In this document: in pieces, positions 10,441 to 31,352 of the stretch | How the letters are laid out: each line of letters opens with the position of its first letter | Position numbering within the stretch: position 1 is the first letter of the stretch | DNA from: Caldifarciminota bacterium | Lineage (GTDB): Bacteria > Hydrothermota > Hydrothermia > B15-G9 | Direction of reading: 5' to 3' | DNA: 35,538 nt | NCBI GenBank assembly: GCA_027037615.1 | Contig: JALVZN010000061.1 | Coordinates: 1 to 35,538 of the forward strand | The notes under the pieces: generated by a model | What the model was told of the DNA's origin: nothing | Databases searched by the model: none | The model's input: the letters and a program-made list of their open reading frames with translations, nothing else | Made by a program: the position numbers and the translations under genes

Positions 10441-10522
10441 AATATGGTCGAAATCGGCAGAGTAGGGGAGTGAAAACGGGAAATCGGGCACGAAAAACAT
10501 AACCTTTATACTTTTGACCGTC

Positions 10523-11902
10523 ATGAACGGAACGGGAAACGAAAGCGGAAGGGTTCCTCCCCATTCGATAGAGGCCGAGATAGTCGTTCTCGGAGCGATG
10601 CTTCTCGACGATAATGCGCTTTTGAAAGGCATGGAGCAGCTGCGGGAGGAGGATTTTTACTTTCCGCATCACAAAAAGATCTTCAGGGTCATCCATGATC
10701 TTTTCGAGCGAAACACCGTTGTCGATGCCATAACCGTCAAGGACGAACTGGCTCGTCGGGGCCAGCTTGAGGAGATAGGCGGCGCCAAATACATTGCGGA
10801 GCTCGTCTCGATGGCCTCATCGCCCGCAATCTTCGACCGACATCTCGACCTGTTGATAGAGAAATCGCTCTATCGCAAGGCGATAGAGGTGGCTTCCCGA
10901 ATACTCGAAGACGCATACATGCAGAAATACGAGGACGCAGATGACCTGCTCGACCACGCTGAGCAGATGATTCTGGACATCAGGGCCAAGAGGATGAGGA
11001 CGGGGTTCCAGTATGTGCCGTCGATGATCAACGAGGTGTTCAACCAGATAAACGCCCTCATCCAGCATCGAGGCGAGGTAAGCGGCATCCCGACGGGCTT
11101 CGACGATCTGGATCATCTGACCACCGGCTTTCATCCCGGTGAATACATCGTCATTGCTTCCCGTCCGTCGATGGGAAAAACGAGCTTCGCACTCAGCATA
11201 ATGCGGCATCTCAGCGTGGACGAAGGCATACCGACCGCCATCTTCAGCATCGAGATGTCTGCCGACCAGCTCGTGCAGAGGCTGTTGTGCATGCAGGGGA
11301 AAATCGATGCCAACATGTTGAGAAAAGGCGAGTTGCGGCCTGAAGACATCCGTAAACTGACGAAGGCTGCTGAGGATCTGAGACGCGCTCCCATCTACAT
11401 AGACGACACCCCGTCCATCTCGTTGATGGAGCTCAGGGCGAAAGCCCGCAGGATAGTCAAGGAGGAGCATGTCAAGATAATCTTCATCGACTACCTTCAG
11501 CTAATTCAGGGGCCGAGGACGGAAAACAGGCAGCAGGAGATCTCGGCGATATCCAGATCCCTGAAATCGCTTGCAAAGGAGATCGATGTGCCGGTAATAG
11601 CGCTTTCTCAGCTCTCAAGGGCGGTGGAGATGCGGCAAAACAAACGGCCTCAGCTCTCGGACCTGAGGGAATCGGGAGCAATCGAACAGGATGCCGATGC
11701 CGTCATGTTCATCTACCGCGATGAGGTTTACAATCCGAACGCAAAGCCCGGCATTGCCGAGATACTGCTGAGCAAGCAGAGGAACGGCCCGACCGGCAAG
11801 GTCACGCTTTACTTCCACAAGGAATACACATTGTTTGTGCCTTACACTGAAGACGAGTATCTGGGCGAAGACGAACTTGACATAGGCGATATGCCGTTCT
11901 GA
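10523..11902 (+). CDS. dnaB: Replicative DNA helicase DnaB
   Basis: PPHSIEAEIVVLGAMLLD; Walker A ASRPSMGKTSFALSI; IIFIDYLQLIQGP; LSQLSRAVEMRQNKRPQLSDLRESGAIEQDADAV. ATG 10523 preferred to TTG 10514. Confidence 0.95.
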   Translation: MNGTGNESGRVPPHSIEAEIVVLGAMLLDDNALLKGMEQLREEDFYFPHHKKIFRVIHDLFERNTVVDAITVKDELARRGQLEEIGGAKYIAELVSMASSPAIFDRHLDLLIEKSLYRKAIEVASRILEDAYMQKYEDADDLLDHAEQMILDIRAKRMRTGFQYVPSMINEVFNQINALIQHRGEVSGIPTGFDDLDHLTTGFHPGEYIVIASRPSMGKTSFALSIMRHLSVDEGIPTAIFSIEMSADQLVQRLLCMQGKIDANMLRKGELRPEDIRKLTKAAEDLRRAPIYIDDTPSISLMELRAKARRIVKEEHVKIIFIDYLQLIQGPRTENRQQEISAISRSLKSLAKEIDVPVIALSQLSRAVEMRQNKRPQLSDLRESGAIEQDADAVMFIYRDEVYNPNAKPGIAEILLSKQRNGPTGKVTLYFHKEYTLFVPYTEDEYLGEDELDIGDMPF

Positions 11903-11914
11903 CAGGATTGGAAA

Positions 11915-12667
11915 ATGAAAAGTTTACTGCTGTTTTTTGAGCATCTCGGGATGGGCACGCTTTTGCTCCTGCGCACGCTGAAGTCGTTGCGGGAGATCGG
12001 CAAAGTGCTCAAGCATCCCTTCTGGGAGCAGATGGATGTCATGTTCTTCGGCTCCGTGCCGCTCGTCATACTGACCGCCGTGTTCTCAGGACTGGTCACC
12101 ACCGTCCAGATAGGCTATTACGGAAGAGGTTACGCGCCACTCGATTATGTCGGAGTGGCGGTCGCCAAGATGGTGATGATCGAGCTCGGACCCGTATTGA
12201 CCGCTCTCATAGTTGCGGGTCGCATAGGCGCAGGCATAGCCGCGGAGATAGGCACGATGCGGGTCACGGAACAGATCGATTCGCTCGAATGCATGGGCAT
12301 CGACCCCGTGCGGTTCCTCGTCCTGCCGCGCGTCCTCGCCGGCATGGTGATCCTGCCAGCACTGACCATCGTCGCAGACCTCACAGCTATCCTCACAAGC
12401 AGCATAGCGGCGGATTTCTACATCGGGGTGCCGACATACATCTACTTTCACGGGATCAGGCTGTTTTTCGCGCCCAAGGACCTGTGGGGCGGGCTGATCA
12501 AATCCCTGTTTTTCGGGATCATCATCACCATGGTCGGCTCCCATTGGGGCTTTGCGACGGAGAAAGGGGCGACGGGCGTGGGTAAAGCTACGACAAGCGC
12601 CGTGGTCACATCGTCCCTGTTCATAATTTTCGCAGATTACATCCTCACGGTGATGATTTACAGGTAG
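11915..12667 (+). CDS. mlaE: MlaE-family ABC transporter permease
   Basis: FFGSVPLVILTAVFSGLVTTVQIGYY...ELGPVLTALIVAGRIGAGIAAEIGTMRVTEQIDSLECMGIDPVRFLVLPRVLAG is the canonical MlaE family block. Confidence 0.9.
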   Translation: MKSLLLFFEHLGMGTLLLLRTLKSLREIGKVLKHPFWEQMDVMFFGSVPLVILTAVFSGLVTTVQIGYYGRGYAPLDYVGVAVAKMVMIELGPVLTALIVAGRIGAGIAAEIGTMRVTEQIDSLECMGIDPVRFLVLPRVLAGMVILPALTIVADLTAILTSSIAADFYIGVPTYIYFHGIRLFFAPKDLWGGLIKSLFFGIIITMVGSHWGFATEKGATGVGKATTSAVVTSSLFIIFADYILTVMIYR

Positions 12668-12671
12668 CGAG

Positions 12672-13415
12672 ATGATAGAGCTCATTGATGTGCACAAATC
12701 ATTTGGCAAAAAAGAAGTTTTGAGGGGCGTCAACCTGAAAGTGGTAAGCGGCGAGTGCCTCGTCATTCTCGGGAGAAGTGGGACAGGCAAGTCAGTGTTG
12801 TTAAAGCACATAGTCGGGTTGATCCAGCCGAATAGGGGTAAGGTTATCGTCGATGGAGTTGACATAAATCGGATTTCGGAGGCCAGATTGTATGAAATTC
12901 GGCGAAACATCGGCTTCGTTTTTCAGGGAGGCGCACTTTTCGACTCGATGGATGTCTTCACGAATGTCGCAATGCCACTCATTGAAAACGAGAAATTCAG
13001 CGACAAGGAGATAGAGGAGAGGGTCATGCATGTGCTCGGCCTCGTTGACCTTCAGGATGCCGCATTTCTGATGCCTTCCGAGCTGTCAGGGGGCATGCGG
13101 AAAAGGGTGGCTATTGCCCGCGCACTTGTGGCTGAGCCGGGTTACATACTTTACGACGAACCCACGACAGGCCTCGATCCGATAATCTCTGACAGGATTA
13201 ACGACCTCATGATAGAGCTCAACTCGCAGCTCGGCGTCACCAGCGTCGTGGTCACTCACGACATCCACAGCGCCCTGAGGATAGCAGACAGGATCGTGCT
13301 CCTGTCAAACGGGGTCATAAAGGTCAACACGAAGCGAAGCGATGTCTGGAATGTGGATGACCCCGAATTTCGAGATTTTCTCCGTGTTTTCAAAGCCTTG
13401 AAGGAAATCGAATGA
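12672..13415 (+). CDS. mlaF: MlaF-family ABC transporter ATP-binding protein
   Basis: Walker A LGRSGTGKSVLLK, signature LSGGMRKRVAIARAL, Walker B YILYDEPTTGLDP. Confidence 0.9.
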   Translation: MIELIDVHKSFGKKEVLRGVNLKVVSGECLVILGRSGTGKSVLLKHIVGLIQPNRGKVIVDGVDINRISEARLYEIRRNIGFVFQGGALFDSMDVFTNVAMPLIENEKFSDKEIEERVMHVLGLVDLQDAAFLMPSELSGGMRKRVAIARALVAEPGYILYDEPTTGLDPIISDRINDLMIELNSQLGVTSVVVTHDIHSALRIADRIVLLSNGVIKVNTKRSDVWNVDDPEFRDFLRVFKALKEIE

Positions 13416-13447
13416 GCGGATGGAGATCCGCTAAAGGAGGTTTTGCC

Positions 13448-14077
13448 ATGAAAAAGCTGGCTGCAATGTTTGTGGTAGTGGCCCTTTTGGGGGTCGCAGG
13501 CTGCGGAAAGACCGAAGGTGGAGGCGGCGGAGGCGGTAGTTCTACCACCTTCAACAACCCGCTTCCGCTGTCGGTAGGCAACTGGTGGGCCTATGTGGAA
13601 AGTGACTCAACTCGCGACACACTGTTTATCAGAGGCACAACTAACATGAACGGGAAAGAGGTGTTTGTAGGAGTGTCTATGCCGGAAGGAGATACATCAT
13701 ACTTTTACCTCGAAAACGGCTACATCCACGAAATACACGACATAGAAAATGTGGGGATGGTCGATATGAAGTTCCTAAAGGTGCCGCTTTCGGTGGGCGA
13801 TCAATGGTCAGTTTATGCAAGTTCGGATACCTCATGGTCGTTCACGATGACCGCCGAAGCCGATGGGACAGAGGACATACATGTGCCTGCGGGCGATTTC
13901 AGCACGATCAGGGTGGTTTACACCACGATCACAACCATGACATTTAACGGCCAGACCTTCGCAGATACAACTTACGACTATGCCTATTACGCTGATAATG
14001 TAGGAGTTGTGAAGACTCGCGATGTAGGCCGTGCTGAGACGAATGTCAGCGAGCTCGAAAACTATCACACGGAATGA
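13448..14077 (+). CDS. Lipoprotein of unknown function with poly-Gly linker
   Basis: MKKLAAMFVVVALLGVAGCGKTEGGGGGGGSS lipobox; SD AAAGGAGG 7 nt upstream of ATG 13448. Confidence 0.75.
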   Translation: MKKLAAMFVVVALLGVAGCGKTEGGGGGGGSSTTFNNPLPLSVGNWWAYVESDSTRDTLFIRGTTNMNGKEVFVGVSMPEGDTSYFYLENGYIHEIHDIENVGMVDMKFLKVPLSVGDQWSVYASSDTSWSFTMTAEADGTEDIHVPAGDFSTIRVVYTTITTMTFNGQTFADTTYDYAYYADNVGVVKTRDVGRAETNVSELENYHTE

Positions 14078-14112
14078 CCTAATCCAATCACAGGATCAAG
14101 CTTTTCTGGAGC

Positions 14113-14130
14113 GGGGGGCTTCGGCCCCCC
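14113..14130 (+). terminator. Rho-independent terminator (UUCG tetraloop)
   Basis: GGGGGGC-TTCG-GCCCCCC followed by TTTAATTT after the lipoprotein stop. Confidence 0.85.
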
Positions 14131-14247
14131 TTTAATTTGCTGCCATGCGGACATTTGGAATTAGAAATCCATCGAGCCTGTGAGAAGTGGCTCAACGGGA
14201 GCGTTTCGCCGTCCAACCGACCGATTTGATGGGTTATACTCAAAGGC

Positions 14248-15078
14248 ATGAAAAGGGTTTTCATATCCATCGACATGGAGGGCATATCCGGGCTCGCAAA
14301 CTGGAAGGAGCCCCGCGATGTGATGTCAAAGATGATGCTCGGCGACTTGATGGCGGCCATCGAGGGCGCATTTGACGGCGGCGCTGACAGGATACTGGTG
14401 GCAGATTCCCATTCCTACGGCATGAACATCCCGCCACATGAACTGCCGCGCAATGTCGAGCTCGTTCGCGGCTATCCGCGCAAGTATTACATGATGGCAG
14501 GGCTTGATGGCGATTTCGATGTCGTTTTCTTCATCGGGTATCATGCCCCTGCGGGATACCTTCACGGCCAGATGGACCACACATACTCCTCATTTTCGAT
14601 CTTCAGGGTCAGGGTGAACGGCGAAGTGTTCGGTGAGGCCGAATTGAATGCGCTCTATGCGGCCGAGCTGGGCGTGCCAGTGGGGTTGATTACAGGCGAC
14701 AGCGCACTCATGGAGTTCTCAAAGCCCAATTTCCCCGAAACTGTCAGATTCGTTGTCACGAAGGAGGGGATGTCAAGGTTTTCTGCAAGGCTTTACCCTG
14801 TCGAAGAAGTGCACGAGAAGATACGGGAACAGGCCAGAGAGACCGTGAATGCGAGCAAGTCGCTGAAGCTGTTCGACAAACTGGATCCTGATGGTGGCTA
14901 CGAACTTGAGATCGAACTGAACGACACCTTAAAGGCTGATCTGATAGAGGTTATGCCAGGGTTTGAGCGGATCGACGGGCGGAGGCTGATGTATCGCGCA
15001 TCGACTGCGGCTGATGTGCTGCGCGTCGTCCACGCATCTGCCATAATGGGAGCTTATGCGAGGTTACTCAGCGGCTGA
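14248..15078 (+). CDS. M55 family metallopeptidase (DppA-like D-aminopeptidase)
   Basis: MKRVFISIDMEGISGLANW; DSHSYGMNI; HAPAGYLHGQMDHTYSS; GEAELNALYAAELGVPVGLITGDSAL. Confidence 0.92.
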   Translation: MKRVFISIDMEGISGLANWKEPRDVMSKMMLGDLMAAIEGAFDGGADRILVADSHSYGMNIPPHELPRNVELVRGYPRKYYMMAGLDGDFDVVFFIGYHAPAGYLHGQMDHTYSSFSIFRVRVNGEVFGEAELNALYAAELGVPVGLITGDSALMEFSKPNFPETVRFVVTKEGMSRFSARLYPVEEVHEKIREQARETVNASKSLKLFDKLDPDGGYELEIELNDTLKADLIEVMPGFERIDGRRLMYRASTAADVLRVVHASAIMGAYARLLSG

Positions 15079-15346
15079 CATCGTCTTCGGCATCTGAACC
15101 TTCGGCATCCGAACTTTTTTCGGCTTCAGCTGGGGCTTTCTCGCTCGATTTGTCGCCTCTGTAAACTATGATGCTATACCTTTTTGATGCTAACCCACTG
15201 ATCACGAGATAAATCCCTAAAAGTATCACGAATATCGGCCAGTCCCGTTCCAGATCGAACTTGAAATAGCCGAATTTGTTCAACCATATCAAGATCCCAA
15301 TAGCCACAAATGTTATGCCCCAGAAAACTCTGCTTCTCATGGCCAC
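15068..15346 (-). CDS. Small membrane protein, DUF5668/LiaF-TM-like
   Basis: RSRVFWGITFVAIGILIWLNKFGYF...WPIFVILLGIYLVISGL; two TM helices then an acidic tail; overlaps the convergent M55 gene by 11 bp. Confidence 0.65.
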   Translation of the reverse strand: MAMRSRVFWGITFVAIGILIWLNKFGYFKFDLERDWPIFVILLGIYLVISGLASKRYSIIVYRGDKSSEKAPAEAEKSSDAEGSDAEDDVSR

Positions 15347-15456
15347 CTCCTGTTTGCAGCTGCGGTTCTTATTTTTATGTCATCCATTGGCCAAGTCAAA
15401 AATGAGTGGTCCCCTTAGCGTCCCTTAAAAATGCGCGGTGATGCATATCAGTAAAA

Positions 15457-15485
15457 TTGAAAAACCTATGTGCCAGCGATAAAAT
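15457..15485 (+). promoter_or_regulatory. Predicted sigma70-like promoter of the wzz-like gene
   Basis: TTGAAA (15457-15462), 17-bp spacer, TAAAAT (15480-15485); ATG only 8 nt downstream. Confidence 0.6.
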
Positions 15486-15493
15486 TTTAGCCC

Positions 15494-16639
15494 ATGAAAC
15501 ACGGAACTCTTGAGATAATTATCAAGTGGAGGAGATTTATTTACCTAAATGTCATAGCGGTGACATTATTTTCCATTATCCTCGTTTTTGTTGTAAAGCC
15601 GAAATACACCGCACATACCTCATTCCAGCCTGTAATCGAACTGCAGGAAGGTCAGGCAGGCGCTTCCCTCGCCCTTTCGATGATGCTCGGACAGGGTTTC
15701 ATGTCTCCGGGCGACATGTATATCGACATAATGAAAAGCAGGCTCGTTCAGGATTCGATAATCAAAAAATTCAATCTCATGAAGAAATTCAAGACGAAGA
15801 ACATGGACAAGGCGAGGAAGCGGTTTAACGATGTGGTCGAGTTTAAGTCCAGACTCACAGGGATGGTGGATGTCTCCGTCACGCTCGACGACCCTGTGTT
15901 GGCGGCGGAGGTTGCAAACAGCATAGTCGAACGGCTTGATGAAGTTAATCGTGAGATCATAATGACCAAAGGCAAAGAGATGCGGATATTCCTGGAGAAA
16001 AGGCTGGAGGAGGCCAGGGCCGATCTTGATAGCACCCAGAAAAAACTTGAGGAGTTCCAGAAAAAACACAAAGTTCTTGACATTTCGGACGAATTGAAAG
16101 CGGCCATAACCGCATATTCCAACCTGAAAGCGCAGGAATTGAGCAAAGAAATTCACCTGCAAACGCTTTTGAAGGTGTTATCGCCCGACAATCCTCAGGT
16201 GCACAAGGTGCAGATAGAGCTGAATTCCATCAAGCAGAAGTTGAAACAGTATGAAACCAAAGGGATAGGCGGGTTCGGTGCAGGCATAAATGTGCCACTC
16301 GATAGCATGCCATCCGTTGCAGTCCAGTTCGCCAACCTCAAGATGGACCTGGAGATAAAGACCAAAGTCTATGGTTACATCGTCGAGCAATACGAGAAGG
16401 CACGGGTGATGGAGGCCAAGGATACGCCGACACTTCAGGTGATAGATGTTGCCATCCCACCTGAGCTTAAGTCGTGGCCGAAACGCAAGGTCTTTGTGAT
16501 AGCGTCGTTCGTCATAAGCCTCATATTTTCCATATTGCTCGCTTTTGTGCTCGAATTCATCGACAGGATCTACGCTGATCCTGCTTTTGACACATTCAGG
16601 AAGGCAATTGAAAAAATAAAAGGAGATTTGAAGCTGTGA
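15494..16639 (+). CDS. Wzz-family polysaccharide chain length determinant (no kinase domain)
   Basis: N- and C-terminal TM helices, coiled-coil periplasmic domain; VVKPKYTAHTSFQPV and VIDVAIPPELKSWPKRKVFVIASFVISLIFSILLAFVLEF. Confidence 0.85.
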   Translation: MKHGTLEIIIKWRRFIYLNVIAVTLFSIILVFVVKPKYTAHTSFQPVIELQEGQAGASLALSMMLGQGFMSPGDMYIDIMKSRLVQDSIIKKFNLMKKFKTKNMDKARKRFNDVVEFKSRLTGMVDVSVTLDDPVLAAEVANSIVERLDEVNREIIMTKGKEMRIFLEKRLEEARADLDSTQKKLEEFQKKHKVLDISDELKAAITAYSNLKAQELSKEIHLQTLLKVLSPDNPQVHKVQIELNSIKQKLKQYETKGIGGFGAGINVPLDSMPSVAVQFANLKMDLEIKTKVYGYIVEQYEKARVMEAKDTPTLQVIDVAIPPELKSWPKRKVFVIASFVISLIFSILLAFVLEFIDRIYADPAFDTFRKAIEKIKGDLKL

Positions 16640-17598
16640 TAGATCCAGTATTCAATGAGATCAAAGATCTGCTCACTGAACAGAGGAACCCTGTGAGCAA
16701 AGATATCGATATAATGAGCATAGAAGACGCATTGAGGGTGATCAATTCCGAGGATCAGAAGGTTGCGAAAGCGGTTGAGAAGGAGATCCCTCACATAGCG
16801 AAAGTGGTTGAGATCTATGTGGATACGATAAAGAGGGGCGGTAGGATTTTCTACATAGGTGCGGGCACATCCGGCAGGCTTGGAGTTCTTGATGCAGCTG
16901 AGCTTCCTCCGACATACGGGACGCCGTTCTGGCTTGTGCAGGGCCTGATAGCCGGCGGTTACGGAGCTGTCTTTCGGGCTCAGGAAGGGGCAGAGGACGA
17001 TCCAAAGAACGCAATCGGTGACCTGAAGGAGCGCGGCCTCACGGCTAACGACTTTGTCATAGGCATAGCCGCATCCAAGAGGACGCCTTATGTCGTTGCC
17101 GGCCTTAAGTATGCCCGCGAGGTAGGCGCAAAGACAGCGATGATAACGGTCATACCCCGTGAACAGGTCGATCTGGATGTCGATGTTAAGATCTGCCCCG
17201 TCGTTGGGCCAGAAGTGGTTATGGGCTCAACAAGGATGAAGGCCGGCACAGCGCAGAAGCTTGTCCTGAACATGATCTCGACGGTCGCGATGATTCGCCT
17301 CGGCAAGGTCTATCAGAACATGATGGTCGATCTGTGGGCCACATCCAAGAAGCTTGTTGAGCGCTCGAAGCGGGTCATCATGATCGCCACCGGTGTGGAT
17401 TATGATACTGCGGCTCATTACCTTGACCTCGCAGGCGGTAGCGTTAAAATTGCTATCGTCATGATATTGTCCGGTGCCGATTACGAGGAGGCTAAGAAGA
17501 AACTCGAAGAGGCTGACGGATTTGTGAGGTTTGCCATCGAAAACATTAAAGGGAAGGTGGCGATCGACAATGCTCAGACCGTTAAAGAGGATACTTGA
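16636..17598 (+). CDS. murQ: N-acetylmuramic acid 6-phosphate etherase-like (MurQ family SIS protein)
   Basis: GGRIFYIGAGTSGRLGVLDAAELPPTYGTP...GSTRMKAGTAQKLVLNMISTVAMIRLGKVYQNMMVDLWATSKKL; GTG start overlapping the wzz stop by 4 nt. Confidence 0.9.
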   Translation: MIDPVFNEIKDLLTEQRNPVSKDIDIMSIEDALRVINSEDQKVAKAVEKEIPHIAKVVEIYVDTIKRGGRIFYIGAGTSGRLGVLDAAELPPTYGTPFWLVQGLIAGGYGAVFRAQEGAEDDPKNAIGDLKERGLTANDFVIGIAASKRTPYVVAGLKYAREVGAKTAMITVIPREQVDLDVDVKICPVVGPEVVMGSTRMKAGTAQKLVLNMISTVAMIRLGKVYQNMMVDLWATSKKLVERSKRVIMIATGVDYDTAAHYLDLAGGSVKIAIVMILSGADYEEAKKKLEEADGFVRFAIENIKGKVAIDNAQTVKEDT

Positions 17599-18118
17599 CA
17601 GGAAAAAGCACAAAAAACTAATCGAAAATTACAAAATAGACGAGGATTTCGTCGAGGCAAAGTTAGAAGTAAAGGACCTTGATCTTTTCATCGAAAAATT
17701 CCGGAAATTCCTCAACCAGCAGGAGGTCAGGGATACATTTCGTTGTCATGAGCTTCTGCTCCAATTGGATCAAACTGATCGGCTTCCGATTAAATTCGAT
17801 GGCGTGGAAGGCGTGGGGTTTGTCGATAACTTCAAGATCTCATGTGGCAGCGAGCTCATGGGCCTGATCGTCGCCAAGTTCATCGACAGAAAGTTCTTCA
17901 TCCTCTCCCCTCAGCTCAGGAGAAAGGTCACGCCCGATGAGGTGAAACACCTCAAAGAGGACTGGAAAGCCCCAATAGAACCCATAAGGATATACCTGAA
18001 ACCTGTTGATATCCCGAAGTTTACCGAATTGTTCGAGAAGTTCGTCGCGGGTTATCGGGATGCCTATCCCAACCCGCTCTCGGAAAGGTTTGCGCCTCGC
18101 GTGAACGAAATCAGGTAG
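17570..18118 (+). CDS. Hypothetical protein
   Basis: Same-strand ORF overlapping the murQ 3' end by 29 bp; ATG 17570 (MLRPLKRILDRKKHKK); no family recognised. Confidence 0.6.
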   Translation: MLRPLKRILDRKKHKKLIENYKIDEDFVEAKLEVKDLDLFIEKFRKFLNQQEVRDTFRCHELLLQLDQTDRLPIKFDGVEGVGFVDNFKISCGSELMGLIVAKFIDRKFFILSPQLRRKVTPDEVKHLKEDWKAPIEPIRIYLKPVDIPKFTELFEKFVAGYRDAYPNPLSERFAPRVNEIR

Positions 18119-19030: not shown

Positions 19031-19092
19031 TGTAAAACTCCTTTGTGTCTTTGCGACCTCAGGTTGGGCTGAGATCGCGATTTTTGAACGAC

Positions 19093-20262: not shown

Positions 20263-20324
20263 GTCCGACCTCCTTTTTGTGTGTTTTTAATAAAAATCGG
20301 TTGGGGCTGTGTCAAGTGGCGAGT

Positions 20325-20848: not shown

Positions 20849-20878
20849 TTGGCCTCCAGTTCCGCATTGATTTATAAT
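20849..20878 (+). promoter_or_regulatory. Predicted promoter of the prolyl oligopeptidase gene
   Basis: TTGGCC, 18-bp spacer, perfect TATAAT (20873-20878), then ATG 20885 after 6 nt. Confidence 0.55.
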
Positions 20879-20884
20879 CTGGCC

Positions 20885-22981
20885 ATGGAACTTGTAACCT
20901 TGTTGTTAATAATAACTTCAGGAGGTCTCAAAGTGGACATAAAGTATCCCGATACTCCGATGCAGGAGGTGGTCGATACCCTGCACGGGGTAGAAGTTCG
21001 AGATCCTTATAGGTGGCTCGAAAACCTTGACGATCCGAAGGTTAGAGCGTGGATAGAGCAGCAGAACCAGCTGACCCGTTCGATACTCGATTCTTTGCCT
21101 GAGAGGGACGCGATCGAAAAAGAGATAGCCCGTCTGTTCAAAAAGGAATCGCTTTCCATGCCCACCTATCGCAACGGCCGTTATTTCTTCTACCGCCGGG
21201 ATCCTGAGCAGAACCATTCCGTGCTCTACATGTCGGTCGGGAAGTTCGACCCCGATGACGCCAGAGTCGTGATCGATCCCAATACTTTCAGCGAGGACGG
21301 AACGGTCGCGCTGGATTTCGCTTATATCTCGCTGGACGGCAAGCTGATCGCCTACGGTAAATCGGAGAAGGGGAGCGAGAACAGCACCCTCTACATCCTC
21401 GATGTCGATACGGGGAGGCAACTTGAGGATACCATACCGAACACCAAATGGACATCGCTTGCGTGGCTGCCGGACAACTCAGGTTTTTACTACACCCGCA
21501 ACACGGGCGGCGACAAATTCATACCGCGCGTGTTTTTCCACAGGCTCGGCACGAGATGGGAAGACGCCCCGATGGCCTTCGGCGACGGCCTGCCTGAGAC
21601 CGATCTTCCGGGTGTAAGCATCTCTCGCGACGGCAGATACATGTTTTTGTATATCCACCGCGGATGGGACAGCAACGATCTGTTCATCAAAGACATGCGG
21701 GACGGCTACGGTTGGGATGGCTGGAAGAAGATTGCCGAAGGGATCGATGCGAAGACCTACGCAACGGTTTACAGGGACACGGTTTACATCCTGACCAACT
21801 ACGAAGCGCCGCGATACCGAATTTTGAAGGCTCCGCTTGAAGATCCCGATATCACGAATGCGAAGGAGATCTACCCTCAACAGGGGCCTCGCACGGTAAT
21901 TCGGGGCATCTTCCTCGCCGGTGGAAAGCTCCTGATCAGATTGAGCCACAACACATATCAGAAGATGATCGTGGCAGACACCGACGGCAATGAGGAGTAT
22001 GAGATTTCAACTCCAACAGAAGGAATAATTTACGCCACGAACGAAACGGAGGACAGGCCGAGAATTTATTACTCGTTCCAGTCCTTCTTTTACCCTCCTG
22101 AGATTCACAGCTACGACCTGAAAACGCATGAGGACAGCCTCATCTACCGCATGAAGACCAGCTATAACCCTAAGAATTTCGAGCAAAAGTTTGTGTTTTA
22201 CAGGTCGAAAGACGGCACCGAGATTCCGCTCTACATACTTTACCCTCGTGGAATTAAGTTAGATGGCACTCATCCGGCCCTCCTCACGGGCTACGGCGGA
22301 TTTGATGTGTCGATGTCGCCTTACTACAATGAGATAGCCATGTTCTGGCTAAGTCACGGCGGCGTTTACGCCCTGGCTGCGTTGCGTGGCGGCGGAGAAT
22401 TCGGGGAGGAATGGCATCGCGCAGGCATGAGGGAAAACAAGCAGAATGTCTTTGACGATTTCATCGCTGCCGCCGAATACCTGATTGATAACGGCTACAC
22501 ATCGTCGGAACGGCTTGGCATAATGGGCGGCTCGAACGGAGGACTTTTGATCGGGGCGGCGATAACGCAGAGACCTGATCTGTTTCGTGCGGCCGTGTGC
22601 TCCGTGCCGCTCCTGGACATGGTGCGATACCACAAGTTTGGCGTCGCAAAGATATGGGTTCCCGAATATGGAAATCCCGACGACCCCGATGATTTCAAAT
22701 ACCTGTATGCTTACTCGCCGTATCATCATGTCAGGGAAGGGGTTGTCTATCCATCGGTCCTTTTCTGGACGGCGGAATCGGACGGGCGAGTGCATCCCAT
22801 GCACGCAATGAAGATGGCAGCTCGAATGCAGACCGTGGCAAGGCCCGACAGGCCGGTTTTGCTCTATGTCGAGCCGAAAGCGGGGCACGGAGTGGGCAAA
22901 CCGGTTAAAAAACGGATAAAGTCAACGGCCGATGAGCTGATTTTCCTCATGTGGCAATTGGACATGCTCAGAGAGAATTGA
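20885..22981 (+). CDS. Prolyl oligopeptidase (S9A family)
   Basis: DPYRWLENLDDPKVRAWIEQQNQLT; GGSNGGLLIGAAITQRPDLFRAAVCSVPLLDMVRYH; GHGVG. Alternative start GTG 20933 with SD AGGAGG. Confidence 0.93.
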   Translation: MELVTLLLIITSGGLKVDIKYPDTPMQEVVDTLHGVEVRDPYRWLENLDDPKVRAWIEQQNQLTRSILDSLPERDAIEKEIARLFKKESLSMPTYRNGRYFFYRRDPEQNHSVLYMSVGKFDPDDARVVIDPNTFSEDGTVALDFAYISLDGKLIAYGKSEKGSENSTLYILDVDTGRQLEDTIPNTKWTSLAWLPDNSGFYYTRNTGGDKFIPRVFFHRLGTRWEDAPMAFGDGLPETDLPGVSISRDGRYMFLYIHRGWDSNDLFIKDMRDGYGWDGWKKIAEGIDAKTYATVYRDTVYILTNYEAPRYRILKAPLEDPDITNAKEIYPQQGPRTVIRGIFLAGGKLLIRLSHNTYQKMIVADTDGNEEYEISTPTEGIIYATNETEDRPRIYYSFQSFFYPPEIHSYDLKTHEDSLIYRMKTSYNPKNFEQKFVFYRSKDGTEIPLYILYPRGIKLDGTHPALLTGYGGFDVSMSPYYNEIAMFWLSHGGVYALAALRGGGEFGEEWHRAGMRENKQNVFDDFIAAAEYLIDNGYTSSERLGIMGGSNGGLLIGAAITQRPDLFRAAVCSVPLLDMVRYHKFGVAKIWVPEYGNPDDPDDFKYLYAYSPYHHVREGVVYPSVLFWTAESDGRVHPMHAMKMAARMQTVARPDRPVLLYVEPKAGHGVGKPVKKRIKSTADELIFLMWQLDMLREN

Positions 22982-23001
22982 AACAAAGAGAATTGAAACA
23001 A
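22972..23001. repeat. Perfect 15-bp tandem duplication across the stop codon
   Basis: AGAGAATTGAAACAA repeated exactly at 22972-22986 and 22987-23001. Confidence 0.9.
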
Positions 23002-23027
23002 ATCGCACCGTAGCGACGAAAAGAAAA

Positions 23028-23053
23028 AGCCTCACACAAATCCGTGTGAGGCT
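23028..23053. terminator. Bidirectional rho-independent terminator
   Basis: AGCCTCACAC-AAATCC-GTGTGAGGCT with a downstream T-tract on + (CATTTTTTT) and TTTTTCTT on -; between convergent genes. Confidence 0.9.
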
Positions 23054-23079
23054 CATTTTTTTGCAATCTCAGCGGGGAT

Positions 23080-24903
23080 TTATTCCTCAGCGTTTTCCTG
23101 TTCCCCTTTGAACCTCTGGACTATCCTGTCGATGTCCTCGCCCGTGATGGTCTCCTTTTGCAGGAGTTCTTCGACGATCGCATCTAAAATCTCGCGGTTA
23201 TTGCGAACTATCTCAATGGCAGTCTGATAAGCCTCGTTGACGAACCGTTTGATCTCCTCGTCGATTATCCTTGCGGTAGCCTCGGAGTAAGGCCTTTTGA
23301 CGCCGAGTTCCCTGCCGATGAAGACCTCTTCCTCGACCTTGCCGAGCGCAACAGGCCCTAACTTTTCGGACATGCCCCATTCTGAGACCATTTTTCGGGC
23401 GATCTCGGTCGCCTTCTCGATGTCGTTTGCGGCTCCAATCGTTTCGATGCCAAGCGCTTCCTTTTCTGCAGCGCGCCCGCCGAGCAGCACTGCAAGCTTT
23501 TTCATTATGTAATCCTTGGAGTAGTTGTGCCGATCGTCCAGCGGCAGCTGAGTTGTGGCTCCGAGCGCCGTTCCGCGCGGTATTATCGTGACCTTGTGGA
23601 TTGGGTCGGGGTCAGGCAGTATTTTTGCCACAAGTGCATGTCCCGCCTCATGATAGGCCGTGATACGCTTCTCCTCCTCGGACAGGATGAGGCTCTTCCT
23701 TGCAGCGCCCATGATCAGTTTGTCGCGCGCTTCCTCGAAGTCCTGCATCGTGACGATCTCGCGGTTGTTCCTTGCCGCATTGAGTGCCGCTTCGTTCACA
23801 AGGTTTTCGAGGTCAGCGCCTGAGAAGCCCGGCGTGCCTTTGGCTATGGCGGACAGGTCAACATCGTCGGCAAGCTTCAGTTTCTTCGCATGCAGCCTGA
23901 GGATCTGCTCTCTACCGCGCACATCGGGCAATCCGACGACGACCCGCTTGTCAAATCTGCCCGGGCGAAGGAGGGCTGGATCGAGGATGTCCGGCCTGTT
24001 TGTGGCCGCCATGACGATGATGCCCTCGGAGGGGTCAAACCCGTCCATTTCGACGAGCAGCTGGTTCAATGTCTGTTCCCGTTCATCGTGTCCGCCGCCT
24101 ATGCCTGCGCCCCTGAGCCTTCCGACTGCGTCCAGCTCGTCGATGAAGATGATGCACGGGCTGTTTTCGCGCGCCTGACGGAACAGGTCACGGACGCGCG
24201 CAGCGCCCACGCCGACAAAGAGTTCGACGAAGTCAGAGCCTGAGATGGAAAGGAACGGCACGCCAGCCTCGCCGGCGACCGCACGGGCGAGAAGCGTTTT
24301 TCCCGTGCCGGGCGGCCCGACCAGCAGCACGCCTTTGGGTATCCGCGCGCCGACACGCCTGAATTTGCCCGGATTTTTCAAAAATTCGACGACCTCTTTG
24401 AGCTCCTCTTTGGCCTCCTCTATGTCAGCCACATCGTCAAAGGTCACATCGGGCTTGTTCTCCTTGATGATCTTGACACGGCTTCGAGTGAAATCCATCA
24501 CACCGCCACCGCCGCCACGCATCTGCCGCATCATGAGGAACCAGATGAGGGCGAAGATCAAAATCCACGGCACGAATGTCACAATGAGGTCGATCCAGAT
24601 GCTTCGCGGTTTTGCCACCACCTTTACGCCAGCCTTCACAAGCCTGTCAACGGCGTTCGGGTCGTCGAACGGCATGTCGGTCTTGAATTCCGTATGCCCG
24701 CCGTAGGGATTGAGGAATGTGCCTGTTATCGTCCTATCCGTTATCTGAACCTCTTTTACATTTCCGAGCTTAACCTGTTCCCAGAACTCGGTATAGCTTA
24801 TTTTGATAGGACGCGTTTTGTTCCCAAGTTGTTCTGAGATAAGCAGAACAATTGCTATCAGAATGCCCCACGCGATAAGCGTTTTCCAGAAGGAATTTTT
24901 CAT
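23080..24903 (-). CDS. ftsH: ATP-dependent zinc metalloprotease FtsH
   Basis: [61 protein letters not shown]-terminal TM segments. Confidence 0.97.
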
Positions 24904-24928
24904 GTTCTTGCTCCAGATGGCTTAAATT

Positions 24929-25459
24929 TTACAGCTCTTCAGGCCGAATCTCCCTGACATAAGGGAGATTGCGGAATTTTTCGGCGTAGTCGAGGCCGTA
25001 TCCCACGATAAACTTGTCGGGAATTTCAAACCCAACATAGTCGGCCTCTATCTCGACCTTACGCCTCTCTTTCTTGTCGAGGAACACACAAATTTTAATG
25101 GATGCAGGTTTCTTGGCCTGCAGATGTTCAACGATATTCTTGAGGGTGAGGCCTGTATCGAGAATGTCCTCGACGATTATGACATCCCTGCCCTCAATAT
25201 CTTCAACTATGTCCTTCAAAATCATGACCACACCGGATGATTCGGTCGATTTGCCGTAGCTTGAAACGGCAAGGAAATCGATTTTAACGGGCAGGTCGAT
25301 ATGACGCATGAGATCGGCAAGGAACACGAAAGCGCCTTTCAGAATGCCGATAAGGATGGGCTCCTTGCCCTGATAATCTCTGGTTATCTCTGCCCCAAGT
25401 TCGGCCACCCGACGGGCAATTGTTTCCTGATCAATCATAAATCCAGAATTCCCGCTCAT
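24929..25459 (-). CDS. hpt: Hypoxanthine phosphoribosyltransferase
   Basis: ILIGILKGAFVFLADLMRHI; DVIIVEDILDTGLTLKNIVEHL PRPP motif; between tilS and ftsH. Confidence 0.93.
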   Translation of the reverse strand: MSGNSGFMIDQETIARRVAELGAEITRDYQGKEPILIGILKGAFVFLADLMRHIDLPVKIDFLAVSSYGKSTESSGVVMILKDIVEDIEGRDVIIVEDILDTGLTLKNIVEHLQAKKPASIKICVFLDKKERRKVEIEADYVGFEIPDKFIVGYGLDYAEKFRNLPYVREIRPEEL

Positions 25460-26804
25460 GATGCTTCTTTACCTCCATTTTTATCAATGAACCTGACTTA
25501 AAATTTCCTCTGAATGACTTTGCAATGCCCACGATCCAGAGGATGCCTTTTTGATCGGCCACGACAGGAATTAGTTCCCTGCGCCATCTGGGCACCTTGC
25601 TGTCGATGAACAACTTTTTTAACGACTTCCAGCCTGATTTCAGCCTGATTTTATCCCCTCTGGCCCTTTTCCTCAGAATGAAAGGCGGCTGAACGGCCGA
25701 TTTCGGGAAACACGCCGTAAACTTGTTCCGACAACCGAGCCCATCATCGACTTCAAAAGCGCTCAGTTCGAGGTTGATGGGGGCATCGAGTGTCACCGTC
25801 GCCCCAACCCCGAATTCAGAAACCGTTTCCAGCTGAAGCTCGTTTCGATAGAACCTGAAATCGCCTTCTGAAGATTCGAGTTTCCATCCATTTCCAAGGA
25901 AAACCCTGCCTCCATTTTCGAGCACATACTCCATGTCGTTGTATTTTGCGTAAGTGATTTCAAAGCCTAAACTTAAAGTCGAGTATACCCAGAAACGATG
26001 AGCCCTATGATAGACAAGGAGTTTGTATCTGTCAAGAATGACCTCACCTTCAGGCGCTGGCTTCCTCAACTCCCTGATGTCCTTCTGGGCCGTCTCCCTC
26101 ATGTAATCCGCCTGTTCCCTGAGGATAAATCCGAACTGAGCGACCTTTTCCTCGAACGCCGGAAACCGCGATTTCACAACGGGAATCACCTTGTGCCTCA
26201 AAAAATTGCGTGTAAACCTCGTGTCGTAGTTCGATCTGTCCAGAACATAGCGGATTTTTCTGGCTTCGAGATAGCTCAGCACCTCGTCCCTGCTTATCTC
26301 GATTATCGGGCGTATGAAAATGTCGTTTTTGGGCGGTATGCCGGCCACGCCGCTTATGCCGCTGCCCCTGAATAAGTTAAACATGATGGTTTCGGCAAGG
26401 TCGCTTCTGGTGTGTCCCAGCGCCACCAACTGGCCGCCCCACTGAGCCAGAGCCGACCTCAGAAAGCTGTATCGCGCCAATCGGGCGGCTTCCTCCAGCC
26501 CGATGGACCGCTCTTTCGCCATTGCGGCCACATCGACGCTGTCGGTGAAGAAATCTAATTTCAGGTCTGCCGCAACCTCCCTCACAAATTCCTGCTCCTC
26601 ATCGGCTTCAGGTCTGAGCCTGTGGTTTAAGTGCGCTACGGCAAGCTCGATGCGGAAAAGCGGCTGCAATTCCTTCAACACATTGAGCAGGAAGATGGAA
26701 TCCGGGCCGCCTGAGACCGCGACCATGACCTTTTCTCCACCTGAGAGCAGTCGGAACCTGCGGATGGTCTTTATGACCTTATTGAGAACGCTTTTTTCGC
26801 GCAC
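25431..26804 (-). CDS. tilS: tRNA(Ile)-lysidine synthase
   Basis: VMVAVSGGPDSIFLLNVL (SGGxDS); AHLNHRLRPEADEEQEFV; GHTRSDLAETIMFNLFRGSGISG; GTG start. Confidence 0.94.
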   Translation of the reverse strand: MREKSVLNKVIKTIRRFRLLSGGEKVMVAVSGGPDSIFLLNVLKELQPLFRIELAVAHLNHRLRPEADEEQEFVREVAADLKLDFFTDSVDVAAMAKERSIGLEEAARLARYSFLRSALAQWGGQLVALGHTRSDLAETIMFNLFRGSGISGVAGIPPKNDIFIRPIIEISRDEVLSYLEARKIRYVLDRSNYDTRFTRNFLRHKVIPVVKSRFPAFEEKVAQFGFILREQADYMRETAQKDIRELRKPAPEGEVILDRYKLLVYHRAHRFWVYSTLSLGFEITYAKYNDMEYVLENGGRVFLGNGWKLESSEGDFRFYRNELQLETVSEFGVGATVTLDAPINLELSAFEVDDGLGCRNKFTACFPKSAVQPPFILRKRARGDKIRLKSGWKSLKKLFIDSKVPRWRRELIPVVADQKGILWIVGIAKSFRGNFKSGSLIKMEVKKHHEREFWIYD

Positions 26805-27234
26805 CTAAAATGCGCCTCCCCTTGGGAATCTGGTTTTTGAGCTTGCCATCGCGATAGATAGCGGAACCGATGACATCGTCGCCCCATTTGACGATGACCT
26901 GTCCCTCCTGAACGGAATCCAGCTCGCCGATTTTGATGTCCTCGCCTCGCAACATCTTCTCAAGATGCTCTTCATCCTCAAGTTGAACCACATTTCGGGT
27001 GGCGAACTTGCCGAATATCTGCATGGCGGCCGTCGTGAATTTGATGCCCCGCGGGAAAATCCTTGCGAGCCTGATGCCCCGTCTCGAAAACGCCCTTATC
27101 TCAAACTCGCCACACTCCTTTGATGCGATCCAGACATCCTTCAGGGCGATGATGGAGTAATCGTCAAAGACCTTTCGGGGTATGCCAAATCGGCTTTCGA
27201 GGTAGTCGAGCACCCGTTTGACCGTTTGATTCAT
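26779..27234 (-). CDS. Stand-alone PUA-like RNA-binding domain protein (resembles the C-terminal domain of NOL1/NOP2/Sun/RsmF m5C methylases)
   Basis: RFGIPRKVFDDYSIIALKDVWIAS...FSRRGIRLARIFPRGIKFTTAAMQIFGKFATRNVVQL...EGQVIVKWGDDVIGSAIYRDGKLKNQIPKGRR; overlaps the tilS start by 26 bp; ATGA coupling with the upstream gene. Confidence 0.6.
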   Translation of the reverse strand: MNQTVKRVLDYLESRFGIPRKVFDDYSIIALKDVWIASKECGEFEIRAFSRRGIRLARIFPRGIKFTTAAMQIFGKFATRNVVQLEDEEHLEKMLRGEDIKIGELDSVQEGQVIVKWGDDVIGSAIYRDGKLKNQIPKGRRILGARKKRSQ

Positions 27235-28226
27235 CTCCTGATCTCCGCCTTGAGCCTGTAAAGTTTCTCGGTTTTGATGCTTTTCAAAGACAGGCCCTCT
27301 ATCTCGTCCAGTATCTCAAGCCTGTGCATGCCGTCGGATATTGCGGTTTTGAGTATCTCGGTGAACAGCACAGTGCCGGCCTGAACATTCATGGCGTTCG
27401 GATCCACATCTTCGATGAGGATCTGCGCAACACCGTTGAATTTCAGCACTATCGACGCTGCAACTGGCCAGCTATCGGCCTTCAGGTAAACGAATTCGAG
27501 CATCCCCCTGCCGGAGAGCACACGGGCACACTCCCTCAAAAATGTCTCCACGCCGATGTCAACCTGTTTGCCAAGCAATTTCATGATGTGGAACAACTTA
27601 TCCAGCTCGGGATCCATCTGCGACGGGTCAGTCACATGGACGATATCCATGTCGGCAAGTCGGCGCGAACGCTTGACCCATTTGGTGACCTTCTTCCTGT
27701 CGCCCTGCTTCAACATTATCACGAACTCATCGAGCGATTCAGGAAGGTCGAAGTAGCTAATTTCGCCCGCCAACTCCTTCTGGATACCGCCTCCCATGTC
27801 CGATATGACCTTCTCGAAAGCCCATATCGTTGGCGAATGCTCAGAGATCGGATGAAGGTCAAACCTGAGGGTAAGTTCGGGATAATCGGTCAACAGGTTG
27901 AACAGAGCCGTTCTGATAGCTTCGTTCCGATGTCTCTGGTCTATCGGGAAGTCGTAATGGCCAAATCCGTGCCCCGACGGGAACGAAAAGGCCACATGGT
28001 CGTCCCTGATGCGGGCGACGAGCGGGATTACACCGATAAGTTCGTTATTGTCCCTGATTTCGATGAGTGACAGCTCTTCATCGCGCGCAAAATAGTCGAA
28101 TGTCAGGCCGAGCCAGCACGGCGTCAGGAATGCGCTTTTGTATTGGAGAGATTTAAGGAGGGCCAACCACTCCTCCACAAGGTCCCAGAATTTATCAGGA
28201 TCACTCCACCGCTTTATCGACAGCAT
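27231..28226 (-). CDS. GNAT/BioF2-like (FemAB-like fold) acyltransferase
   Basis: Double-GNAT layout: PCWLGLTFDYFARDEELSLIEIRDNNELIGVIPLV and FLRECARVLSGRGMLEFVYLKADSWPVAASIVLKFNGVAQILIEDVDPNAMNVQAGTVLFTEILKTAISDGMHRLEILD. Confidence 0.7.
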   Translation of the reverse strand: MLSIKRWSDPDKFWDLVEEWLALLKSLQYKSAFLTPCWLGLTFDYFARDEELSLIEIRDNNELIGVIPLVARIRDDHVAFSFPSGHGFGHYDFPIDQRHRNEAIRTALFNLLTDYPELTLRFDLHPISEHSPTIWAFEKVISDMGGGIQKELAGEISYFDLPESLDEFVIMLKQGDRKKVTKWVKRSRRLADMDIVHVTDPSQMDPELDKLFHIMKLLGKQVDIGVETFLRECARVLSGRGMLEFVYLKADSWPVAASIVLKFNGVAQILIEDVDPNAMNVQAGTVLFTEILKTAISDGMHRLEILDEIEGLSLKSIKTEKLYRLKAEIRR

Positions 28227-28558
28227 ATTCTTGATTTATTATCGAGCATTCGGCTCCGATTGCGCAAGCGAACGAGGTGCATTATCACGCATTTTTAACT
28301 ATACATACTGCCATACAGGGCATTGCAGCATCCACAGGCCTTCCTCCAGCGGGAAGTGGTCATAGCCGCGGGATTGAGGTGTGAACATCGCCGTGACGGC
28401 CATTAAAAAGCTGTGTGGGTTGATAGAGCTGCGACACAACTGAACGGAAAAGAGGATGTTTGTCATGCAGCGTCATGAGTAATGCCTGTGCAGGTTAGTC
28501 GCTCGATCTCAAGAGGTCACTGACCCAATGGTTTCCACTCAGATCGATGTCTGAATCA

Positions 28559-28587
28559 TTGCCTATCCGGTGATTTGTCGATAAAAT
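28559..28587 (+). promoter_or_regulatory. Predicted promoter of asnS
   Basis: TTGCCT (28559-28564), 17-bp spacer, TAAAAT (28582-28587), ATG 10 nt downstream, no SD. Confidence 0.5.
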
Positions 28588-28597
28588 ATCCCGCACT

Positions 28598-29890
28598 ATG
28601 AAATGGATTTACATTGAAGATGCCGGTAAACATGTTGGGGAAGAGGTCGAGATAAGGGGATGGCTTTTCAACAAAAGGTCATCGGGCAAGATCCACTTCC
28701 TGATCGTCCGCGATGGGACCGGATTTATGCAGGCGGTCGTTGTCAAAAGCGAGGTTTCGGACGAGGTCTTTGATCTCTACGACGAGCTGACGCAGGAGTC
28801 CTCGATAATCGTTCAGGGCGTTGTCAGGGCGGACAAACGCGCTCCCGGCGGATATGAGCTCACGGTCCGAAATATCCAGCTTGTCCACCGCGCCATCGAC
28901 TATCCGATCACAAAGAAGGAGCATGGCATCGGATTCCTGCTCCCGAGGCGCCATCTCTGGCTCCGTTCGCGCAAACAGTGGGCGTTGATGCGGCTGAGGA
29001 ACGAGGTGGAGATGGCAATCGAGGATTTCTTTCAGAATGAGAAGTTTGTCCGTGTGGATGCGCCGATTTTGACGCCATCTGCATGTGAGGGAACCACAAC
29101 GCTTTTCAAAACGGATTACTTCGGCGAGCCGGCATACCTGTCGCAGTCAGGCCAGCTTTACATGGAAGCGGCGGCAATGGCGCTGGGCAAGGTGTATTGC
29201 TTTGGCCCGGCGTTCAGAGCTGAGAAATCGAAGACGCGCCGCCACCTGATGGAGTTCTGGCAGGCTGAGCCGGAGGTCGCATGGGCGACGCTCGACGACA
29301 TCATGGACCTCGCCGAAAACCTGATAGCTTACATCGTCGAACGGGTGCTTGAGACCAGACAGGAAGAGCTGAAGCTTCTGGAAAGGGATATCTCCAAACT
29401 TGAAGCTGTCAAAAAGCCTTTTTACCGCATAACTTACACGGAAGCGGTTGAGATAGTCAACAAGGCCGGCCTCAAGATGGAGTGGGGCGAGGATTTCGGC
29501 GGCGATGAGGAGACGGTTCTGGCTCAGCAGTTCGATAAACCCATACTCGTCCACCGTTATCCGGCGAAGGTCAAGCCGTTCTACATGAAGCGCGATCCTG
29601 AAAACCCTGACCTTGCGCTCTGCGTCGATGTGCTTGCGCCGGAAGGATATGGCGAGATAGTCGGCGGCGGACAGCGCGAGGACGATTACGAGACGCTCTA
29701 CAACCGCATGGTCGAGGAAAACATGCCTATCGAGGATTACGAATGGTATCTCGATCTCAGGAAATATGGGTCAGTGCCTCACTCCGGCTTTGGCATAGGG
29801 CTTGAGCGCACCCTGAGATGGATCGCAGGGATACACCACATCAGGGAAGCGATACCGTTTCCGAGATTGCTTGAGAAGATTTATCCGTAG
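28598..29890 (+). CDS. asnS: Asparaginyl-tRNA synthetase
   Basis: OB-fold GEEVEIRGWLFNKRSSGKIHFLIVRDGTGFMQAVV; class II motif 2 FGPAFRAEKSKTRRHLMEFWQAEPE; motif 3 HSGFGIGLERTLRWIAGIHHIREAIPFPR. Confidence 0.93.
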   Translation: MKWIYIEDAGKHVGEEVEIRGWLFNKRSSGKIHFLIVRDGTGFMQAVVVKSEVSDEVFDLYDELTQESSIIVQGVVRADKRAPGGYELTVRNIQLVHRAIDYPITKKEHGIGFLLPRRHLWLRSRKQWALMRLRNEVEMAIEDFFQNEKFVRVDAPILTPSACEGTTTLFKTDYFGEPAYLSQSGQLYMEAAAMALGKVYCFGPAFRAEKSKTRRHLMEFWQAEPEVAWATLDDIMDLAENLIAYIVERVLETRQEELKLLERDISKLEAVKKPFYRITYTEAVEIVNKAGLKMEWGEDFGGDEETVLAQQFDKPILVHRYPAKVKPFYMKRDPENPDLALCVDVLAPEGYGEIVGGGQREDDYETLYNRMVEENMPIEDYEWYLDLRKYGSVPHSGFGIGLERTLRWIAGIHHIREAIPFPRLLEKIYP

Positions 29891-29920
29891 TGCGGATTTG
29901 TTGAGGCTGGAAAACGAAAA

Positions 29921-29943
29921 GGGGCGGCGCTTCGCGCCGCCCC
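29921..29943. terminator. Bidirectional rho-independent terminator
   Basis: GGGGCGGCGC-TTC-GCGCCGCCCC perfect stem; GAATTTTT on +, TTTTCGTTTT on -; between convergent asnS and the porin-like gene. Confidence 0.9.
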
Positions 29944-29967
29944 GAATTTTTATCACACTCAAAACGC

Positions 29968-30900
29968 TTAGAACATGACCTGCATGAGTGTCGAGATGTA
30001 AGAATCAGGCGAGAGGGTCGTATCGGCATAAGTGGTTTTGCCGTAGAACAGCTGGAATTTGAATGGGCCTTTGTAGAGGTTGAGACCAATCTCCATGTTG
30101 CTCATCTCATCATTTTGGACGCTTTTGTCATCGTCCAGATGGCTGAACTTGAGCACGGGCTGGAAGTCCATGCCAGCGATGCCACTGACTTTGTATGCCG
30201 CTGTGACCTGGAACCCGCCACCTTTGATGGTGGTTGTCGAATTCACTTTGTTGGAACCCATCAGGTATTCGGCAATTATGCTGGCGCCCAGGAAATTGCC
30301 TATCAGGCCGAGATTGATGTCCTGGACATCGTTATCGCCAATGTAAAAGCTCGGCACAAAGGTCAAATTCCCAATCGGCAGAGGCGGCGTGAGCTCCAAC
30401 CTGCCCACCATCGAGTAGCCCTTCTCATTTGTGGAGCCGTTGTAGATGCCGAACGCATATCTGAAAAACGGCAGTTTGCCGTTGATAGAAGCTCCGATGT
30501 CTATGCCGTTGATCTGATAATTTCCAGAGAAGGTGGCAAGGGACACAAGCGAGTAGTTCGGGGTTAGGAGGTTGAACGGCGGTGTGTAGGCCTCTATGCC
30601 GAACGGGACAACCATCTTTCCGTAGCTCAGGTTGAAGACATCGGATAACTTGATGTTCATCAACGCCCATGTGAGGAAATTCGTGCTGAGATCGGTCTCG
30701 ACGAACACGGAGAACATGTCGTTTATGTTGCCCATGAAATCGATGGCCACATTCTTGAAGTAGAAGTTGGACACATAGGTGCTGTCCGACAGGTTGATAT
30801 CATACGCACCCCTCAGATACCCGCTGACTGTGATATTTTGTTGCGCATACACACTGCCGCTCAGTATGGCAGCAATCACCATCATCTTGATATACCTCAT
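29968..30900 (-). CDS. Porin-like outer membrane beta-barrel protein
   Basis: Signal peptide MRYIKMMVIAAILSGSVYAQ; alternating beta strands; DMFSVFVETDLSTNFLTWALMNIKLSDVFNLSYGKMVVPFGIEAYTPPF typical of phosphate-selective-porin-like barrels; C-terminal aromatic residue (QVMF); SD AAAGGAGG. Confidence 0.75.
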   Translation of the reverse strand: MRYIKMMVIAAILSGSVYAQQNITVSGYLRGAYDINLSDSTYVSNFYFKNVAIDFMGNINDMFSVFVETDLSTNFLTWALMNIKLSDVFNLSYGKMVVPFGIEAYTPPFNLLTPNYSLVSLATFSGNYQINGIDIGASINGKLPFFRYAFGIYNGSTNEKGYSMVGRLELTPPLPIGNLTFVPSFYIGDNDVQDINLGLIGNFLGASIIAEYLMGSNKVNSTTTIKGGGFQVTAAYKVSGIAGMDFQPVLKFSHLDDDKSVQNDEMSNMEIGLNLYKGPFKFQLFYGKTTYADTTLSPDSYISTLMQVMF

Positions 30901-31053
30901 GACACAATCCTCCTTTTAAGGTTTTGGATTTCAAAGGGGAGCGCATCACAAATGCGGAAGGCCGAGTTTTGAGCCGTCATATCGAGCTCCATTTTCACGG
31001 TGAATATTTAAAAGGTGTAAATTTTTAATGTCAATGCGGCCTATCACCAATTG

Positions 31054-31082
31054 TTGCAGGTATTTATGAAAACGCATAAAAT
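31054..31082 (+). promoter_or_regulatory. Predicted leaderless promoter of cas2
   Basis: TTGCAG, 17-bp spacer, TAAAAT (31077-31082), ATG exactly 6 nt after the hexamer; no SD. Confidence 0.45.
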
Positions 31083-31088
31083 AAGGCC

Positions 31089-31352
31089 ATGTTTATCATA
31101 ATGGTTTACGATGTCAAAGAGGAACGAGTGGCCAAAGCGCTCAAGGTATCGAGAAAATACCTCAACTGGGTTCAAAACTCGGTTTTTGAGGGCGAACTCA
31201 CGGTCTCGCAGCTCGAACGGCTCAAGGCAGAGCTGCACGATGTGTTAAATCCCGAGGAGGATTCGGTCATTTTCTACAAGTTTAGGACCCGTGCATATTT
31301 CGAGCGTGAGGTTCTGGGCATCGAGAAGGGCGGTCAGGAGATGTTTCTGTGA
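31089..31352 (+). CDS. cas2: CRISPR-associated endoribonuclease/integration protein Cas2
   Basis: MFIIMVYDVKEERVAKALKVSRKYLNWVQNSVFEGELTVSQLERLKAEL...DSVIFYKFRTRAYFEREVLG: Cas2 N-terminal YDV active-site strand, RKYLNWVQNSVFEGELT signature, length 87 aa. Confidence 0.92.
   Translation: MFIIMVYDVKEERVAKALKVSRKYLNWVQNSVFEGELTVSQLERLKAELHDVLNPEEDSVIFYKFRTRAYFEREVLGIEKGGQEMFL

Follow-up and report, generated by a model that had tools for sequence, protein, structure and literature searches.

Candidate leaderless expression of a minority of first genes from promoters placed at the ATG in a WOR-3/Hydrothermota bacterium

The window, that is, the whole stretch of 35,538 nucleotides that was analysed, is contig C61 of the 2.06 Mb, 185-contig draft genome of the window organism (G000). 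An initial annotation listed seven genes in it at which a -10-like hexamer lies within a few nucleotides of the ATG with no visible SD, and all seven hexamer coordinates and hexamer-to-ATG gaps proved correct to the base:

10507..10525, plus strand: dnaB; -10 TATACT 10507-10512, gap 10, ATG 10523; predicted near-leaderless
14235..14250, plus strand: M55 D-aminopeptidase; -10 TATACT 14235-14240, gap 7, ATG 14248; predicted leaderless
15457..15496, plus strand: wzz; -35 TTGAAA 15457-15462, 17 bp, -10 TAAAAT 15480-15485, gap 8, ATG 15494; predicted leaderless or with a very short leader
20756 to 20744, minus strand: small SocA/Panacea-like gene; -10 TATGAT 20756-20751, gap 6, ATG 20744; predicted leaderless
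20873..20935, plus strand: prolyl oligopeptidase; TATAAT 20873-20878, gap 6, ATG 20885; further start GTG 20933; probably SD-led
28559..28600, plus strand: asnS; -35 TTGCCT 28559-28564, 17 bp, -10 TAAAAT 28582-28587, gap 10, ATG 28598; mRNA predicted to be leaderless or to have a 1-4 nt leader
31077..31091, plus strand: cas2; -10 TAAAAT 31077-31082, gap 6, ATG 31089; predicted leaderless

The products of cas2 and the M55 gene have Pfam matches to Cas2 and M55, and the SocA/Panacea-like product has a match below the cut-off. The cas2 gene (31089-31352, plus strand) has no cas1 neighbour and no adjoining CRISPR array; it lies between a Porin_O_P-like gene (29968-30900, minus strand) and a gene for a GH57 branching enzyme (31422-33083). 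Single examples of this kind prove little: TANNNT lies 6-10 nt ahead of 50 of the 1379 ATGs on both strands of the window and of 4.2% of the 41,081 ATGs in 1.05 Mb of G000.

The arrangement was therefore counted in ~1.05 Mb of G000, taken in stretches (L002-L101). Genes were called with a dicodon model in our own simple caller, and candidate starts were scored for SD alone, the first ATG being taken for SD-less genes, so that the -10 hexamer had no influence on the choice of start. First genes were those with a divergent neighbour or lying at least 150 nt behind a gene on the same strand, and internal genes were those less than 60 nt behind one. A gene was called leaderless-like when TANNNT ended 6-10 nt before its ATG and an SD (at least 4 nt) was absent at all in-frame candidate starts near the coding onset. 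Counts were compared with 300 shuffles, with G017, a genome of the same class as the window organism from outside its order, and with 300 kb of E. coli K-12 run through the identical pipeline.

An SD of at least 4 nt preceded 202 of the 282 first genes of G000 (150 had one of at least 5 nt), and 77 were SD-less at every candidate start. Of these 77, 30 (39%) carried TANNNT 6-10 nt ahead of the ATG, compared to 7.5 ± 2.5 in shuffles (maximum 17), with gaps peaking at 7 and 9 nt and none at 11. The same motif was found in 5 of 63 SD-less internal genes (null 4.6; Fisher P = 2e-5 relative to SD-less first genes) and in 1 of the 150 first genes whose SD was at least 5 nt long (Fisher P = 2e-15); relative to the all-ATG background, the enrichment at SD-less first genes had P = 2e-21. 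In G017, 33 of 49 SD-less first genes carried the motif in a sharp peak, with 20 at exactly 6 nt, a gap present in only 2 of the 30 G000 genes (P = 5e-6 for 2/30 versus 20/33). No peak appeared in 300 kb of E. coli K-12, in which 2 of 22 SD-less first genes had the motif against a null of 2.5. Overall, leaderless-like genes made up ~11% of first genes and ~4% of all genes in G000, and 32% and 10%, respectively, in G017. The remaining 47 of the 77 SD-less first genes of G000, which lack TANNNT at 6-10 nt, may have wrongly called starts, depend on other sigma factors or use leaders of a non-SD type. The genome-wide count of first versus internal genes that the initial annotation had proposed thus gave a positional peak at SD-less first genes only. 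Its wider statement, that two initiation modes are split by gene position, fails: leaderless-like starts are confined to first genes, yet most first genes are SD-led.

One of the seven window genes probably belongs to the SD-led majority. A perfect AGGAGG lies 7 nt before the in-frame GTG 20933 of the prolyl oligopeptidase gene, homologues align from this GTG, 16 codons past ATG 20885, and an SD near the GTG start is kept in five of six other close orthologues. Most likely, TATAAT here is the promoter of an mRNA with a ~48 nt leader whose main start is the SD-led GTG 20933. The upstream ATG adds 16 in-frame residues (20885-20932, plus strand) that are hydrophobic, MELVTLLLIITSGGLK, and the orthologue in G002 has an N-terminal extension of similar character, MVEIFVVTVMTFVPGGVT, that also adjoins a TATAAT; ATG 20885 is thus a possible second, leaderless start, or the start of a possible signal-like peptide. 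The absence of a visible SD therefore does not hold for this gene and stands for the other six.

Misplaced starts would be a rival explanation: the hexamers would then be ordinary promoters giving mRNAs with leaders, and translation would truly begin at SD-led codons downstream of the called ATGs. The prolyl oligopeptidase gene, with its AGGAGG-GTG 48 nt downstream, fits this. SD-led first genes do carry TANNNT further upstream, with a hump at 22-34 nt in G000. As a general account this explanation is improbable: in none of the 30 counted genes does an in-frame candidate near the coding onset have an SD of 4 nt or longer, and the asnS, M55, cas2 and most wzz orthologues align from residue 1-9. 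The two hexamer positions predict a bimodal leader length, either about zero or just enough for an SD. Among the six remaining window examples dnaB is the weakest, because alignment with homologues does not settle where it starts.

The hexamers have the character of promoters. A -35 element with at least 4 of 6 matches to TTGACA preceded 15 of the 30 leaderless-like genes of G000 (null 6.0 ± 2.0), and in 9 of these 15 the spacer was exactly 17 bp. A pyrimidine occupied position -1 in 25 of the 30, compared to 84 of 150 SD-led genes (P = 0.007), and in all 11 G000 leaderless-like genes with a gap of 7, in keeping with +1 at the A of the ATG; in G017 this preference was weaker and not significant (21/33 versus 20/39, P = 0.34). 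The second codon AAA was also enriched (10/30 leaderless-like versus 17/150 SD-led genes, P = 0.005). Leaderless mRNAs need a 5' AUG or, at times, GUG. The start codon was ATG in 30 of 30 leaderless-like genes in G000 and 30 of 33 in G017, and among unbiased start candidates in G000 the motif accompanied 36 of 100 ATG, 4 of 41 TTG and 1 of 32 GTG codons.

An alternative is that the AT-rich hexamer serves translation and is no promoter, acting for example as an S1-type or unstructured-leader non-SD site within a longer leader. According to Nakagawa et al. (PMC5397173), S1 sites can be the source of an AT-rich bias around -20 to -10, and some SD-less internal genes do exist. A translation signal would be expected at SD-less internal genes too, however, where the hexamer stayed at its null level (5 of 63 versus 4.6), and the combination of a -35 at 17 bp with fixed spacing is promoter-like, which makes this explanation very improbable.

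The arrangement was also followed through orthologues. At asnS, M55 and wzz, TAAAAT or TATAAT next to the ATG has been kept while the flanking sequence has diverged. The window asnS is 99% and 96% identical to candidate division WOR-3 records and 87% identical to Candidatus Hydrothermota, and TAAAAT lies 6-10 nt before its ATG in 18 relatives of the class; in G027, G011, G021 and G016 the promoter is gone and an upstream ORF of ~290-310 codons ends within a few bases of the gene. M55 has TATACT-7 or TATAAT-6 in seven genomes of four genera, including G000, with looser matches elsewhere, and is operon-internal with AGGAGG in G008. The wzz gene has TAAAAT-8 or -10 in the genus and family and TATAAT-6 in G017, G012 and G016, and the SocA/Panacea-like gene has TATGAT-6 in G001, TAAAAT-7 in G002 and TAAAAT-9 in G003. 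Only in G000 and G001, in both of which it stands alone, is cas2 leaderless-like, with the same TAAAAT-6-ATG; in eleven relatives it lies directly behind a 300-370 codon ORF that is probably cas1, and has either an SD or no visible signal, the latter probably reflecting a coupled start behind the abutting ORF. The dnaB site is kept in G001, TATAAT lies nearby in G002, and the gene has an SD or coupled start where it is operon-internal. Across orthologues, the motif without SD was present at 33 of 48 first copies and 9 of 40 internal copies (P = 2e-5), counts that are not phylogenetically independent, with some internal labels that rest on short ORFs and are doubtful.

Outside the phylum, the close relatives of the AsnRS-type synthetase (28598-29890, plus strand) are from Aminicenantes (~60%) and Micrarchaeota (30-48%). 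TATAAT also adjoins the asnS ATG at all three Aminicenantes loci examined.

A chance origin of AT-rich hexamers picked by eye beside ATGs, for which the background frequency at all ATGs speaks, is hardly credible and was rejected on the basis of the shuffles (never above 17/77), the -35 co-occurrence at 17 bp, the E. coli control and the exact tests, given also 39% at SD-less first genes compared to 4-8% elsewhere and conservation of the promoter-ATG arrangement at protein identities down to 30-60%.

The mode of initiation is labile for individual genes, as judged from few pairs: of the orthologues that are first in both G000 and G017, one was leaderless-like in both, four were SD-led in G000 and leaderless-like in G017, and nine were SD-led in both. 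The single gene that was leaderless-like in both samples encodes a TGS-domain GTPase (MMR_HSR1 + TGS):

L079:17147 in G000 and L155:8282, minus strand, in G017: TGS-domain GTPase; leaderless-like

Pfam matches for leaderless-like genes (25 from G000 outside the window and 20 from G017), taken as a descriptive listing, gave a mixed set with no single functional class; families included AsnRS (in the window), ProRS, GlyRS alpha, RecG, histidine kinases, transporters, LolA-like, LpxB, RF-1 and MiaB-like proteins.

We consider it very likely, on sequence grounds, that a minority of first genes in this organism is expressed leaderless from promoters placed at the ATG, alongside an SD-led rest. The leaderless reading of the initial annotation gains from the positional peak, the -35 elements, the conservation within the class and the absence of a peak in E. 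coli, and loses one of its seven examples. In the proposed mechanism, a sigma-70-type promoter (TTGaaa-17-TAAAAT/TATAAT) would be set against the start codon, such that RNA polymerase would start at, or a few nucleotides from, the A of the ATG and make an mRNA without an SD leader, on whose 5'-terminal AUG the ribosome would initiate as it does on leaderless mRNAs in other bacteria. Most other genes, both first and internal, would rely on ordinary SD initiation through the intact 16S anti-SD. The anti-SD tail of the 16S rRNA of the window organism is indeed intact (GGATCACCTCC), which leaves both modes available. We infer the exact transcript 5' ends and initiation on a 5'-terminal AUG from this arrangement; gaps of 8-10 nt, which are common in G000, could correspond to leaders of 1-4 nt. 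In the window lineage the spacing has drifted to 7-10 nt. It is conceivable, though rather unlikely, that start-site choice has changed specifically in this lineage, with these genes giving near-leaderless mRNAs whose leaders measure 1-4 nt, or with the polymerase starting further downstream of the -10 than usual.

Comparable systems are known. TA-led leaderless genes, with a TANNNT/TATAAT-like signal ~10 bp upstream and no SD, were described in 207 of 953 bacterial genomes, the motif being TATAAT-like in medium-GC genomes (Zheng et al. 2011, PMC3160421). The window organism resembles these in its TATAAT-like motif and absence of SD; the groups listed in that study do not include WOR-3/Hydrothermota, and the leaderless share in G000 and G017 is modest. 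In Deinococcus, nearly one third of genes have an ORF-adjacent -10, with the hexamer ~6-7 bp before the ORF, beside GGAG-type sites and without functional bias (PMC12340547), whereas in G000 leaderless-like genes are only a minority, spacing is spread over 6-10 nt and -35 elements are clear. Mycobacterium tuberculosis uses a TANNNT promoter, and its leaderless class, defined by a 5' UTR of -5 to +5 nt (Cortes et al. 2013, PMC3898074), covers the G000 gaps of 6-10; starts in that organism were measured and lack a conserved -35 (PMC3898074), whereas those in G000 are predicted and about half have a TTGACA-like -35. More broadly, leaderless genes are predicted for ~21.6% of bacterial species, as quoted in PMC9581028, citing Lomsadze 2018. 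Our search found no report using the term 'leaderless' for WOR-3/Hydrothermota or Hydrothermae, which is weak evidence given that subscription papers and preprints lay outside the search. The case thus extends a mechanism known elsewhere to a further lineage.

Through this finding, an uncultured phylum-level lineage would join the bacteria in which SD-led and leaderless initiation occur side by side. It also suggests a practical rule for choosing start codons in genomes of this lineage, namely to use the -10 hexamer as well as the SD. Finally, cas2, asnS and dnaB, which are SD-led or coupled inside operons and have the promoter at the ATG when they stand first, may serve as natural switch experiments.
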